Of a stretch of DNA of 64,000 bases, positions 1,334 through 35,661 are shown piece after piece; positions within the stretch are counted from its first letter, which is position 1, and each line of letters opens with the position of its first letter. Source of the stretch: Thalassotalea sediminis (GTDB lineage: Bacteria > Pseudomonadota > Gammaproteobacteria > Enterobacterales > Alteromonadaceae); the NCBI RefSeq assembly GCF_030295915.1, contig NZ_AP027361.1:1488001-1552000 (forward strand), read 5' to 3'. The position numbers were made by a program, and so were the translations under genes. Under the pieces are notes generated by a model that was not told the origin of the DNA, searched no databases, and saw nothing but the letters and a program-made list of their open reading frames with translations.

Positions 1334-4300
1334 TTAGGTTTGGCAAAGTTGTCTAAACTGAATTAGTTGTCCTTTCATCGCTACGACATCAAAAATATCA
1401 ATTGTTTGTTTTAAATCAGTTGCGAAGTGGCGTAATGCATCACTGTTATTTTGTTTTGCTTCATGTAGCAAGGATTCAGCAAAACTCGCAATATCGTTAA
1501 GGTTGTTACTTTTTATTAGCTGTTCACATGTTGGTAAATATTTTTCATGTAAATGTTGCTTTAGTGAATTGCTAAGCGGTTTCTGTTCAACATCAGGTAC
1601 ATTTGATGATTGTTGTTGATAGGGTAAAAAGCGCTTTAATTCTGTGATGAGTTCTTGTTTTAATACTGGCTTTCTTAAGTAACCAGCAAAGTTTTCACGA
1701 CGTTGCCTTTCATAATCGTCACGCATAACTGACGCTGTAAGCGCGACAATGGGCACATTTGGCTGATCATGTTTGATAATATTGGCAGCTTCATAACCAT
1801 CCATTTCTGGCATTCTTATATCCATGATCACTAAGTCAAACGGTTGTTCTTTAATTGCAGCAACGGCCTCAAAACCATTGCTAGCCTGTTGCGTATTAAT
1901 ATTCAGTGTGCGACAAATTTCAACTAATAAGTCTCGATTATCTTGAATATCATCAACGATTAATATGTTAGCGTCAGAAAAGGTAAGTGACAGTTGTTCT
2001 GTTTCTTCTGATAGAGGCTGTGGCGCGTTTTCAATTGCGCAAATATCAATATTTTTTAAGTAAATAGAAAAACAAGAACCTTTATTTAATTCACTTGTGA
2101 CAGATAATTTACCATTCATCAATTCTGTTAGTCTTTTACTAATGGTGAGTCCTAAGCCTGTACCACCATACTTTCTTACGCTTTGACCTTCTTGTTGTTG
2201 AAAACTTTCAAAAATATCATTAATTTTATCTTCTGGAATGCCAATGCCTGTATCTTCTACATCAATCCTTAGGTCGAGCGTACTATGAATTTCATTCTCA
2301 TTAATTGCGACAGCTCGCAAGGTAATACAGCCCTCTTCAGTAAATTTAACGGCATTGCCGACTAAATTAAAAAGAATTTGGCGAATGCGCGTTGCGTCTA
2401 ATAATAGAGCGTTCGGTATTTTCTCATCGACGTTAAGTACAAAGTCTAAGCCTTTTTTACGTACATTCATGGTAAAAACATTACTGATGTCTTCGAAAAT
2501 GGTATGTGGATTACAAACTTCTTTATCGATAGTGAGTTTGCCGGCTTCTATTTTTGATAGATCTAAAATGTCATTTATTAGCAAGAGTAGCGAGTTACCT
2601 GCTGACTTTATTGTTTTTACGAAGCTCTTAAGTTTATTGTCTTGAATTTGCTCATAAAGTAATTCAGTGAACCCAATAATAGCATTCATCGGCGTGCGAA
2701 TTTCATGGCTCATATTCGCTAAAAATTCAGACTTCGCTTCGTTAGCGGCTTCAGCGGTTGCTTTCGCGTGTTGTAATTCTCGCTCCATTGAGACTCGGTC
2801 ATTCAAATTAACGATAATATACATTAGCGCTGTTTTATTTTGATAGCGAATGGGAATAATAGAGAGTAAACCTTCAATGGTGGTATTGTTTAACGTTTGA
2901 ATTTTTACTTGCTCATCATGAATATTCTCTACACAACCTTGATAGAATTGTGTACTAGAAGTTTGGTGCAACGTTGCTTCGTCGATATCAAGTTCTTCTA
3001 TTGCCCAGTTATTGGCCATTAACAACGTGTTATCTTCAATATTAGCAACAAAAACAATAACGGGAATGTTATCAATAACGACAGATAGGTTACGTTCGCT
3101 CTGTTTTAATGATTGTTGTACTTTCGTTCTAAGTAGTATTTCTCGTTGTAATTTTCTATTCCAAATAAAAATAATGGCAATAATTAAGCAAGCAACACTC
3201 AGGATAATAAAAATAAGCTGGTAGTCGGTTTTTACAATTGGATCTTTGCTCCCCCATCTATCAACTATTTGTTGCTTTTCGTTGGTACTTATATTGGCTA
3301 GTACTCTATTTATCATCGGAATGATAGGGGCAAACTCTTGTTGAAAAACAAAACGTAGCTCTAAGTCGTATTGGGTTTTTCCTACTACTCTGATGCCACT
3401 ATAGCCACGCTCTGCTATTAAATAATTTACTTGAGCTAATGGACTAATAAAAACATCTGTCTTTCCAGATGATAAATCTTCAAGGCCTTGTTCGGCTGTA
3501 TCAACGAGTAAAAATGACTGTTCTGGAAATCGTTTTATTAAGTCTTCGCTACTAAAATAATCTTTAATTAGCGTAATACGCTTGTTAAAAACACGCGTAA
3601 TGTCGTCAATGTACTTATCTTCATTTTGCATAACTATCACAAATGGACTGCTTGCAAAGGTGTCAGAAAATAACAGCGTCTTTAAGGGTTTATAAGAGTT
3701 TGCTGCTGAGCCCATATCTGCAGTTTTCGACAGTAAAGCGTCTTTACTTTGTTGCCAATCTTTGGTTGGTAATCGATTAAAGTTAATATTGAGTGCTTGT
3801 GAAATAAGTGTGAGATAATCAGGCACAATACCTATGTGTTTACCTTGCTTGTTAGTAGCTTCAAAAGGCATCCAATTTGGATCTGTAGCTAATGTGATCT
3901 TGTTATGGGTTAATAACCATTGCTTTTCTTGTTTTGATAACTGAATTCTAGGTTTAGGATCTAAATGTTTATTGATTAACCATTTATCGTACAAGGTATC
4001 TGTTGCGTTACCCTCTAAATGAACAATGGCTTTATTAATGATATCTATTAGCGTGGTGTAATCATTTCTCGCGGCAAAATGTAAACTGTTTTGTGATGCT
4101 TGAGGTAACGTTTTGAAGGGGAGAATATTCGTGACTGATTTTTGCTCGAGCAAATAATTAATAACAGCATGAGCATCATAGATAATGTCAGCTTTTTTTT
4201 CTATCACATAATCTATAGCTTGCGATGGGGATTCCACATAAACAAAGGTTAAATTATGGATATGCTCTTTGATATAAGATTCCATGGCACTATCTTTAAT

Positions 4301-15889: not shown

Positions 15890-15975
15890 AACAGTTTGTA
15901 AAAGGCAAGTATGGTGAAATCCATATACGCAAAGTTTCCGACCTAAGGTATATACTATGGTAGCGGGACTGCAGA
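15890..15975 (+). promoter_or_regulatory. c-di-GMP-I (GEMM) riboswitch aptamer
   Basis: The conserved core of the class I c-di-GMP aptamer reads in order: AAGGCAA (15902-15908), a hairpin with stem TATGG/CCATA and a GAAA-containing loop, ACGCAAAG (15927-15934), CCGACCTAAGG, a second helix, and GGTAGCGGGACTGC (15959-15972). CAGT (15892-15895) can pair with ACTG (15968-15971) as P1. This matches the Vibrio Vc2 pattern GGCAA...GAAA...ACGCAAAG...CCGGCCTAA...GGTAGCGGG. It lies on the + strand about 90 bases before the PEP-CTERM gene, which is its evident target. Confidence 0.88.
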
Positions 15976-15991
15976 GAATTGAACCTTCCCA

Positions 15992-33213: not shown

Positions 33214-33231
33214 CGTAAGACATGTCTTACA
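33214..33231. promoter_or_regulatory. GacA/UvrY-type box upstream of the first Csr RNA
   Basis: CGTAAGACATGTCTTACA, of which 16 bases form a perfect palindrome (33215-33230). It differs from the TGTAAGA-N-AT-N-TCTTACA consensus only at the first base. The box starts 187 bases before the conserved TGTCAGGACG at 33401. Confidence 0.8.
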
Positions 33232-33401
33232 TTGGCGTGAGATATAAAGTCATTTCATCCAGATTTTTGGAAGGGACTTTATGATTACTATTTGATTTTT
33301 AAGGTAATATCTTTATTTCTTGTCTTTACAAAAAATTTACAAGCAATTAAACATTATTATTAGGCCTGCTAAAAAATAGCATTCAGCGTAATATTAATCA
33401 T

Positions 33402-33699
33402 GTCAGGACGACATTGACTAGGACGGTCAAGAGCACCTGAATGCTCGCAAAGGAATAATCTCGGGAAGAGATTGAATGTTAGCTACATGGATAGCTTCAC
33501 GGAAGATTGTTAGTAACATGGATGGTTTAGGGAAACTGATACGGCTGAGGACGGCTGTTTAGATGGATCTTTAAGGATGTTGATGGAATTAACAAAGGAA
33601 AGGCTAGGGACAGCTGTTTAGGGATGAAGCGGGAAATTGATATGCAGGATGCATACAGCTAGTTAGAGAAATGCGGCTCATTATGGGCCGCATTTTTTC
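33402..33699 (+). ncRNA. csrB: CsrB-type regulatory RNA, copy 1
   Basis: About 298 nt. It has 17 GGA motifs, many shown in hairpin loops: TTGAC-TAGGACG-GTCAA, AATCTC-GGGAA-GAGATT, GCTA-CATGGA-TAGC and ATGCA-GGA-TGCAT. Such RNAs bind many CsrA/RsmA dimers and so release CsrA-repressed mRNAs. The 5' end is set by a TAATAT -10 (33389-33394) and by the ATTAATCATGTCAGGACGACAT stretch shared with copy 2. The 3' end is an intrinsic terminator. No open frame fits. Activation by a GacA/UvrY regulator is implied by the upstream box. Confidence 0.88.
33671..33699 (+). terminator. Intrinsic terminator of the first Csr RNA
   Basis: ATGCGGC (33671-33677) with GCCGCAT (33687-33693), extended inward across a small loop, then T6. 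It forms the 3' end of the RNA, 56 bases before the convergent membrane-protein stop. Confidence 0.88.
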
Positions 33700-33754
33700 T
33701 TTTGCTAGGTTGTTATTCGGGAAGAACAGCTACATATCTAATCAGCGTTACTAT

Positions 33755-34894
33755 TTAACTTGAAGGCAGAAGTTTCGCATAGTGTTTATTTTTGCCTATA
33801 AGTGCTTGTGTTCCTTTCAATGAAAAATCATAACCGCAGAGCTTAAAACTGCCACGATACACGATATTATTTAATATCTCAGCACTATCTAGCGGTGTAA
33901 AGGCAGCGATATACGTATCTTGATTTTCTACATTTACCTGCATGACTCTATAAGATTTATCATTATTGAATACTAATAACTCACAGCTTTTGTCACCTTG
34001 AACGGTCGTGATATCCCATACTTTGTTCTCGTTAGTGATGTCAGCCTGCCAACTAATAAAAATACCATCATAGATGCTTAAACTTAATGTAAAATCGTCA
34101 GGCATTGTTAATGGATGTAACCGTTCTAAATTCGGTTTATTGAGGGCTTTTGCGTGATCATTTTCATTAGACTGTGTGATATCAATTGGCTTATCAGTGG
34201 TCAGTAGGCTTGTTATTACAATACCAGTAATAACAATTGCGATGACGGCAGCCAAAGTATACTTGCTGTTATGTCCTAATAGCTTTGCTCTAATATGTTC
34301 ACCAAGATCGCTTGTTGAGGAAGTACTACTATATTGATGGGCAAACTGTTGTTGTTGATGATGATTAGTTAACAATTCATCGTCACTTAACAAGGGTTGT
34401 TCAGACGGACCAAGGTTTGGCTCTACACGCGTTTTTGTTTGGTGTATTTCTTTATTTACAAATTGAGATAAGTCAATTGGGCCTGAATAGCCCAAAATAT
34501 ATTGATGGCGTCGCTTATTGCCTTTACTAGGGTAGGTTAATAGTAAAGACGCTAGAAACAAGGGTAGTAAAATTAGCCAATATAGGGCAATAACATCAAC
34601 AAAAACCATGAGTAAAGCAGATAGTAAAAAGCTTAATGCGGGTACATAAAGCCAAGGACCATGCAACTGAGCATCAGCTAACCTTCTTTTACTTGCAAAG
34701 AAAATAACCACAGTAACAAATAATGCGATAAGCAATTTAATGCTCATAAATTGATGAAACATTGCAGAGAATAATAAATAAAATAGGTGGCTTACCAATA
34801 TAATTACGCTGTAGCGTAATCTATTGTCGATACCCTGCTGACAGAAAAGAGATAAAAATAAAGGCACAAACACTCCGCGTGAAAAGATAGTCAT
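33755..34894 (-). CDS. DUF805-like membrane protein of unknown function
   Basis: 379 residues. N-terminal block of about five hydrophobic helices (residues 5-125) with SKRRLADAQLHGPWLYVPAL, resembling the RRLxD...W motif of DUF805. Then a cytoplasmic linker rich in Gln/His/Ser (150-200), a single membrane helix (about 213-232), and a C-terminal soluble domain of about 145 residues with two cysteines (SCELLV and KLCGYDF), probably periplasmic and possibly disulfide-linked. It lies convergent to the first Csr RNA and divergent from the second. Function unknown; being sandwiched between the two RNAs is its most notable trait. Confidence 0.7.
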   Translation of the reverse strand: MTIFSRGVFVPLFLSLFCQQGIDNRLRYSVIILVSHLFYLLFSAMFHQFMSIKLLIALFVTVVIFFASKRRLADAQLHGPWLYVPALSFLLSALLMVFVDVIALYWLILLPLFLASLLLTYPSKGNKRRHQYILGYSGPIDLSQFVNKEIHQTKTRVEPNLGPSEQPLLSDDELLTNHHQQQQFAHQYSSTSSTSDLGEHIRAKLLGHNSKYTLAAVIAIVITGIVITSLLTTDKPIDITQSNENDHAKALNKPNLERLHPLTMPDDFTLSLSIYDGIFISWQADITNENKVWDITTVQGDKSCELLVFNNDKSYRVMQVNVENQDTYIAAFTPLDSAEILNNIVYRGSFKLCGYDFSLKGTQALIGKNKHYAKLLPSS

Positions 34895-35045
34895 TGAAAA
34901 TCTACCGCAAGGGTAATCATTTTTAAATCGATTGTCAGTGAAATTCTTATGGTTCGTACGAGAAATGACATACTTTGGTTGTTATGTGAACAACTCGGTT
35001 TTAAATGTACGTTTTGTTTAACGTTACATATTTTAGCCTTTATTA

Positions 35046-35063
35046 TGTAAGACATTTCTTACA
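35046..35063. promoter_or_regulatory. GacA/UvrY-type box upstream of the second Csr RNA
   Basis: TGTAAGACATTTCTTACA fits the TGTAAGA-N-AT-N-TCTTACA consensus at every fixed position. It starts 187 bases before TGTCAGGACG at 35233, the same distance as for copy 1. It also sits in the divergent region upstream of the DUF805-like gene. Confidence 0.85.
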
Positions 35064-35233
35064 GGTACGTCAGATTTCTTGGTAAAAGTTGTAAGTGTTA
35101 TATTTAGATTTTCTTATAAGTATATGAATTAAAATGTAAATTATGTCTTTTCAGTTGTGTTGGAATTAAGTGCTGTTGAATTATTTTATAAATGACGCTT
35201 TTACAAGGAGTCGGCTTTGCTAGAATTAATCAT

Positions 35234-35556
35234 GTCAGGACGACATAGCGAAAGGGAACTTCTTGTTAAGGATGATGTAAAACTAATCGATTAAGGATAG
35301 ATCGACGTTGATGTAACTCAGATTGGCAAGGATAGCAAACGGATGATAAACATAGGATGTTTAACCAAATAATAGTAGCAGGATGCTAGTAGGGATATTA
35401 ATTCAACAGGACGTTGATGAATGGAAACGATATTATTTGTACGAGGGAACGTTTGTAAAAGGGAATGGAGGCCCTGTCAGGATGACACTGAGTAAAGATT
35501 TAGATATTGGACGTATCTGATCTTAGGAAAAGCGACGAAAGTCGCTTTTCCTTTTT
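35234..35556 (+). ncRNA. CsrB-type regulatory RNA, copy 2
   Basis: About 323 nt with 17 GGA motifs. Hairpins present GGA in the loop: TAGCA-GGA-TGCTA, TGTCA-GGA-TGACA, CAAC-AGGAC-GTTG and AAACAT-AGG-ATGTTT. The 5' end shares 22 bases with copy 1 (ATTAATCATGTCAGGACGACAT), preceded by a TAGAAT -10 (35221-35226) and a weak TTTACA -35 at 35200. The bodies of the two RNAs otherwise differ, so they are ancient paralogues and not a recent repeat. Predicted role: sequestration of CsrA. Confidence 0.88.
35525..35556 (+). terminator. Intrinsic terminator of the second Csr RNA
   Basis: Perfect 12-bp stem (AGGAAAAGCGAC 35525-35536, GTCGCTTTTCCT 35541-35552) with a GAAA tetraloop, then T5. Confidence 0.92.
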
Positions 35557-35661
35557 CTAGTTTTTAAGAAACCCTAAGGTGTATTGTAGTAGTTTATATA
35601 CTGATAAAAGTATGTCTAATGCATCTTAATATTCGTTATAAATATCATAAATAAGTGGCTG

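Follow-up and report, generated by a model that had tools for sequence, protein, structure and literature searches.

Helical phasing about an IHF-like bend site as a proposed rule for UvrY-activated csr promoters, from two csr-type genes of Thalassotalea sediminis and their relatives

At csrB of Escherichia coli, binding of UvrY far upstream of the gene and a need for integration host factor (IHF) have been shown, and DNA bending was proposed (PMC4682653). Here, we examine two predicted genes for csr-type small RNAs (sRNAs) and their promoters in Thalassotalea sediminis (Gammaproteobacteria, Enterobacterales, Alteromonadaceae). Both lie in a stretch of 64 000 bp (assembly GCF_030295915.1, contig NZ_AP027361.1, positions 1 488 001 to 1 552 000), referred to as the window, and coordinates are those of the window. 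A far UvrY box combined with IHF bending has already been published for E. coli csrB and this architecture is hence known. A first-pass annotation of the window, made from the sequence without database searches, reported that the UvrY/GacA boxes of both promoters are 187 bp from the RNA starts and proposed a selected, fixed distance. On the comparative sequence evidence presented here, these are likely UvrY-activated csr promoters folded by an IHF bend, in which two rotational phases are selected and 187 bp is one realization of that rule.

Described systems and the two genes of the window

In E. coli and Salmonella (PMC4682653), the csrB promoter, with UvrY/SirA as regulator, has the same far-upstream 18-bp inverted repeat, followed after 5 bp by a comparable additional sequence, and also an intervening IHF site and a CsrB-type RNA. 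The distance from the box to the RNA differs (191 bp, compared to 187 or 188 bp here), as does the in-phase IHF consensus of E. coli csrB, which is in the plus orientation with its centre at +85.5 from the box start, compared to minus and +83.5 for the IHF-like sites here. In E. coli, csrB RNA is reported to be about tenfold lower without IHF (PMC4682653). The csrB of Erwinia was also reported to be IHF-dependent (PMC5109040), and IHF binding was reported for rsmZ of a fluorescent Pseudomonas (PMC4950607), where rsmX, rsmY and rsmZ share the box as the GacA upstream activating sequence. In Vibrio, csrB, csrC and csrD have VarA as their regulator and share the box. In the survey described below, the Vibrio-type family (f21) has its IHF-like centre at +83.5 to +84.5, but most of these promoters have a bend-to-promoter segment shortened by one turn. 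For V. cholerae, a requirement for the VarA site has been shown (PMC6550530), and the csrB and csrD constructs reach back to −197, leaving 20 nt in front of a box that starts at about −177 (PMC6550530). This position is the Vibrio mode of our survey. In Shewanella oneidensis, csrB1 and csrB2 are neighbouring genes, each with a box and both UvrY-dependent (PMC3171408); a transposase gene lies between them, whereas in the window there is an ORF (open reading frame) for 379 aa. A more distant parallel, likened to csrB by the authors of PMC4682653, is E. coli narG, where a FixJ-family regulator is repositioned by IHF (NarL at −190, IHF at −125), though regulator and gene are different. The IHF consensus represents one half of a 35-bp site (PMC8421141, PMC9519438). 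Among the literature matches listed, none stated that spacing changes turn by turn or that the bend centre is independent of orientation, and many subscription papers were outside the coverage of that search.

Judged by their sequence features, both genes of the window are of a known kind, csr-type sRNA genes with UvrY-type promoters (Table 1). With up to two mismatches allowed, a search of the window for the box pattern found these two boxes and no others (0.42 expected; two or more in 7 of 100 shuffles), and they are the only boxes with at most one mismatch in the 3.9-Mb genome, where the reversed pattern used as a control had no match. The sequence TGTCAGGACG is found in the window only at 33401 and 35233, and the distance to it from the box start is exactly 187 bp in both promoters, confirming the reported distances. 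Both predicted RNAs begin with TGTCAGGACGACAT and both contain 17 GGA motifs, against 8.2 (sd, standard deviation, 2.4) for RNA 1 and 7.6 (sd 2.2) for RNA 2 in shuffled sequences. They are more stably folded than shuffles (z −4.5 and −3.2, respectively), and the two terminator-like sites detected in the region, for which shuffles of the region predict 1.1, are at the two RNA ends. Each predicted RNA is thus rich in GGA, about 300 nt long and closed by a terminator-like hairpin, as in the CsrB/CsrC family, and is preceded by an 18-bp inverted repeat about 180–190 bp upstream of the sRNA start, as in UvrY-activated promoters. It is on these features, and not on Rfam membership, that the RNAs were classed as csr-type, since neither reaches the Rfam gathering score (CsrB, 40.2 of 71 bits, E 5.8e-9; CsrC, 25.8 of 61 bits, E 3.6e-5). 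The genome encodes a UvrY orthologue (NF007018, 400 bits with a cut-off of 280) and includes csrA, the product of which the predicted RNAs would sequester.

Distance from box to RNA start in relatives

If selection held the box at exactly 187 bp from the start, close relatives should show the same distance. Both copies here and both copies in a second genome of the genus (G003) are at 187 bp from TGTCAGG, and equal spacing in a pair of paralogues is therefore not unique to the window. However, the distances are 185 and 184 bp in both G004 and G002, and 185 bp in G001, where no second box with up to four mismatches was found within the 5.4 kb examined. Measured to the G of GTC, the distance is 188 bp here and 185–188 bp across the genus, but 176–180 bp in 13 of the 14 Vibrio-type cluster representatives, and the E. 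coli csrB box starts 191 bp from the RNA start (G). Among 51 promoters from the family, TGTCAGG is at 184–188 bp in 28 (4, 13, 3, 5 and 3, respectively) and at 197–208 bp in six, and is absent in 17. Variable spacing in close relatives, which the first-pass annotation had itself named as evidence against its proposal, is thus found, with 184, 185 and 187 bp represented in four genomes of one genus. The spacing in relatives rules out an exact 187-bp ruler as a general rule, and we regard it as scarcely credible. What the annotation described is real and the mechanism it suggested is likely, but the quantity it took to be constant is not the conserved one.

That the distance is selected appears to be correct, as it is constrained though the sequence of the linker between box and promoter is not: the spread within the genus is only 3 bp, despite linkers that, in gapped alignment, resemble each other no more than shuffled sequences do. 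An alternative is that equal spacing is left from a duplication, or arose by chance, with no selection on distance. The copies do share their first RNA bases, paralogues are equally spaced in G003 as well, and the two linkers of the window, when compared in register, are somewhat more alike than by chance (identity 0.44 vs 0.31, sd 0.03). In 10-bp bins, this likeness includes contributions from a helper half-site adjoining the box and from an AT-rich region at about +60 to +110. Because of this excess, the description of the intervening sequences as unrelated is not strictly true, though it holds for gapped alignment, where identity is 0.63 compared to 0.617 (sd 0.021) for shuffled linkers. 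The lack of similarity in gapped alignment argues against shared ancestry, which in addition predicts neither a common centre for IHF-like sites of opposite orientation nor departures of mostly one helical turn, both of which are documented below. We consider this explanation improbable. The distance between box 1 and box 2 is 1832 bp here, 1800 bp in G003, 3536 bp in G004 and 3742 bp in G002.

Box-to-bend and bend-to-promoter segments

The survey drew its boxes from 246 family genomes, 397 + 298 of the order and 235 of the class, in draws that overlap. Candidates were required to include at least 11 GGA between +185 and +485, so that neither promoters spaced very differently nor short RNAs of the rsm type could be included. 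The 156 promoter candidates were reduced to 150 by removing six overlapping secondary boxes, and to 110 clusters at 75 % identity. The motif search for IHF-like sites was started from the IHF consensus with no position information, using both orientations and a posterior threshold of 0.8, and the −10 element was placed by a two-block model without a position prior. Calls that were not confident (19 of the 110 for IHF) or were below 0.8 confidence (29 of the 110 for the −10 element) were left out. Scoring a single orientation gave 57 confident sites of 110 (threshold 0.9), leaving the enteric and many Shewanella-type promoters unexplained, and was replaced; with both orientations allowed and the threshold at 0.8, the number rose to 91. 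In some promoters of f6 and f15, minus-orientation sites one turn farther from the box gave way to sites in the plus orientation whose centre is the standard one. For −10 placement, use of a 9-mer hexamer model by itself was dropped, as it was too noisy in AT-rich linkers. One entry (L054) includes near-identical csr-type promoters at 4222 and 4881, 659 bp apart, apparently a recent tandem duplication.

The exact IHF consensus was found between the box and the −10 element in 32 of 110 representatives, compared to 2.75 (sd 1.8) expected, nearly all at +70 to +89. With other representatives, the count was 30 of 110, with minus hits at +70 to +72 (14), plus hits at +83 to +86 (15) and two further plus hits at +40 and +44. 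Because the consensus fills one half of the 35-bp site, the minus hits at +70 to +72 and the plus hits at +83 to +86 share one bend centre if this is taken to lie at the A-tract side of the consensus. On this basis, the bend centre of the 91 confident sites is at +82.5 to +84.5 in 77 cases. In a broader window (81.5–85.5) there are 81, 50 of them minus and 31 plus, with three more at 72.5–73.5 and six at 93.5–95.5. The centre is thus independent of orientation, and the departures from it are mostly in phase. A single 3-bp window holds 86.4 of the 110 units of posterior mass, compared to 6.7–9.0 in five block-shuffled sets. A score of at least 6 at the canonical centre was reached on the csr side in 72 of 110, but at an out-of-phase position in none of 110 and on the far side of the same boxes in none of 108. 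Among 80 boxes without a csr gene (a control that omitted L241–L320 but not L321–L331), one reached this score, and that one (L330) was csr-like in the scan described below. A helper half-site, resembling half of a UvrY box and situated about two turns past the box start, was found at +22 or +23 in 84 of the 110 representatives, compared to 4 of 110 for a control region.

When scored with the learned matrix, both sites of the window are strong and at the canonical position, though the training set of the matrix included these promoters. The site score was reached in the canonical window by 0.3 % of shuffled linkers (n=2000) for promoter 1 and by none for promoter 2. The AT-rich element could instead be intrinsically curved, or bound by HU or another nucleoid protein, in which case the phasing would be real but the bender different. 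Consistent with this, the three HU/IHF-family genes of the genome were not separated into HU and IHF, and neither site of the window fits the strict 13-bp consensus WATCARNNNNTTR, with one mismatch in promoter 1 and no match within one mismatch in promoter 2. However, the learned motif stayed the IHF consensus from which it was started, with the same centre in both orientations, and published reports describe IHF dependence or IHF binding in E. coli, Salmonella and Erwinia (csrB) and in a fluorescent Pseudomonas (rsmZ). A different bender is therefore considered unlikely, and the IHF bending put forward in the first-pass annotation is probably right, with an IHF-like site predicted from sequence at one fixed place in the linker.

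Named genomes were also scanned, with gaps of 38–68 allowed between the box and the IHF-like motif, and gaps of 52–54 and 63–65 were predicted before the output was seen. Some of the scanned genomes had already been used in the discovery set, L243, L251, L259, L278 and L301 at least. All 65 strictly csr-like matches, of 91 in total, fall in three in-phase windows, with gaps of 42–43 (2), 51–54 (35) and 63–65 (28). The predicted gaps account for 61 of the 65, and the two at 42–43, one turn shorter, were not predicted. A looser GGA threshold gave 72 csr-like matches, two of which are outside the windows (gaps of 38 and 66). Titles were listed for 80 of the 91 matches, and among these the 63–65 group is mostly Pseudomonas, Alcanivorax, Halomonas/Vreelandella and the like, which are outside the surveyed order and differ from the window in that the IHF-like site is mostly one turn farther from the box. 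Of the 26 matches that are not strictly csr-like, 13 have gaps of 41–42, which coincide with the shortest of the three windows. Twelve of these 13 (L242, L247, L256, L264, L265, L270, L271, L292, L313, L318, L319 and L326) carry the same palindrome, TGTGAGTAATGTCTTACA, with the IHF-like motif 41–42 bp away and no GGA-rich RNA downstream; 11 of the 12 are titled Pelagibacteraceae, and the palindrome apparently marks one orthologous locus. A separate search with a plus-orientation pattern found six matches in 375 genomes, all with gaps of 67–69, but only one of these matches came from a genome that the discovery set did not include.

Placed without a position prior, the −10 elements are mostly 164–166 and 172–178 bp from the box start, with a few at 185–187 and troughs at 168–171 and 182–184. 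None of the 81 confident calls is at 168–171 or 182–186. Periodicity was sharpened by splitting the total length at the IHF centre. The distance from bend to −10 element (n=66) is then bimodal, with 18 at 78–83 and 42 at 89–95, about one turn apart, and none between; the remaining six are at 56.5, 72.5, 75.5, 96.5 (twice) and 98.5. The 78–83 group consists of the Vibrio-type f21, both f14, one f15 copy, and f1 g6 and g19.

A number of observations weigh against an IHF bend with two selected phases. No confident IHF-like site was found in 19 of the 110 clusters, although 13 of the 19 still have their best site at 82.5–85.5. In L027, L045 and L093, and likewise in the second copy of L046, the site is not at any in-phase place, and the confident site of L011 is at 117.5. 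In E. coli csrB, two overlapping exact matches to the consensus are present, one of plus orientation at +86 with its centre in phase (85.5) and one of minus orientation at +89 with its centre out of phase (101.5). The csrC of E. coli K-12 (L333) has an exact plus consensus at +74, about one turn nearer the box than that of csrB (L332) at +86, but was reported to be IHF-independent despite this in-phase site (PMC4682653), and the GacA site of P. aeruginosa rsmY was reported at −75 (PMC4950607). The bend-to-promoter segment is less clean than the box-to-bend segment, with a phase spread of about 3 bp either way and a best period of 11.6. A general sigma-70 scan listed neither csr promoter of the window, and their −10 elements were taken from the comparative models. 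In the survey, no more than 81 of the 110 clusters gave a confident −10 call (search range 150–200); the three calls at 150–157 and another three at 181 fit poorly, though those at 150–157 are probably misplacements in AT-rich DNA. The periodicity of the total length is broad (R about 0.4, best period near 12.5, genus-collapsed p 0.002 against a Gaussian), and taken alone is suggestive only; p-values were collapsed by genus and not corrected on a tree.

Table 1. Positions of the predicted features in the 64 000-bp window
Feature	Position	Strand	Remarks
UvrY/GacA box 1, CGTAAGACATGTCTTACA	33214..33231	+	18-bp inverted repeat, one mismatch to the pattern
Helper half-site, CGTGAGATAT	33236..33245	+	22 bp past box 1 start
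IHF-like 13-mer, TTACTATTTGATT	33285..33297	−	Inferred bend centre at box +83.5; top-scoring linker site
−10 element, TAATAT	33389..33394	+	175 bp past box 1 start; comparative model
CsrB-type RNA 1 (predicted)	33401..33698	+	Terminator-like stem 33666–33698; Rfam CsrB 40.2 bits
ORF of 379 aa between the sRNA genes	33755–34894	−	No Pfam match
UvrY/GacA box 2, TGTAAGACATTTCTTACA	35046..35063	+	18-bp inverted repeat, perfect match to the pattern
Helper half-site, CGTCAGATTT	35068..35077	+	22 bp past box 2 start
IHF-like 13-mer, TAAGTATATGAAT	35117..35129	−	Inferred bend centre at box +83.5; top-scoring linker site
−10 element, TAGAAT	35221..35226	+	175 bp past box 2 start; local posterior 0.76, 0.98 in 150–200 range
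CsrB/CsrC-type RNA 2 (predicted)	35233..35552	+	Terminator-like stem 35525–35552; Rfam CsrC 25.8 bits over 35373–35563
c-di-GMP-I riboswitch	15894–15976		66.9 bits; only window match above the Rfam gathering score

Proposed geometry and its meaning

In the geometry we propose, phosphorylated UvrY would bind the palindrome together with the helper half-site, and IHF would bind the AT-rich site, with the bend centre 75 bp (about seven turns) from the box centre. The sharp bend would then fold the upstream DNA onto RNA polymerase at the −10 element, about 91 bp past the bend. Occupancy of these sites by IHF, formation of the fold and selection for phase are inferred. On this view, the rotational phase between box and bend and that between bend and promoter would each be under selection, and neither the sequence nor a single total length would be. 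Both copies in the window have 187 bp because both segments are the same (83.5 and 91.5). The fixed helical geometry of the first-pass annotation is probably right when restated as phasing, as the constraint behaves like helical phasing, with departures of mostly about one turn.

The result of interest is this two-segment phase rule, drawn from sequence comparison. It seems probable, though less so than the reading of the window promoters themselves, that in csr and rsm promoters of Gammaproteobacteria the box-to-bend and bend-to-−10 distances vary by whole turns and hardly otherwise, that the orientation of the IHF site is free provided that its centre is kept, and that selection sees only the rotational geometry of UvrY, IHF and polymerase. 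The geometry could then be used to find or correct csr-type genes.

In many bacteria, metabolism, motility and virulence are under the control of the Gac/Csr switch. The question of why its activator must bind so far upstream has had only an answer that was proposed for E. coli csrB. The promoters compared here differ mostly by whole turns and have IHF-like sites of either orientation around an unchanged centre. They come close to an insertion experiment done by evolution, and this natural promoter series makes the looping model directly testable. It would also provide a geometric signature for csr-type genes that score below the Rfam gathering threshold, as both genes here do.

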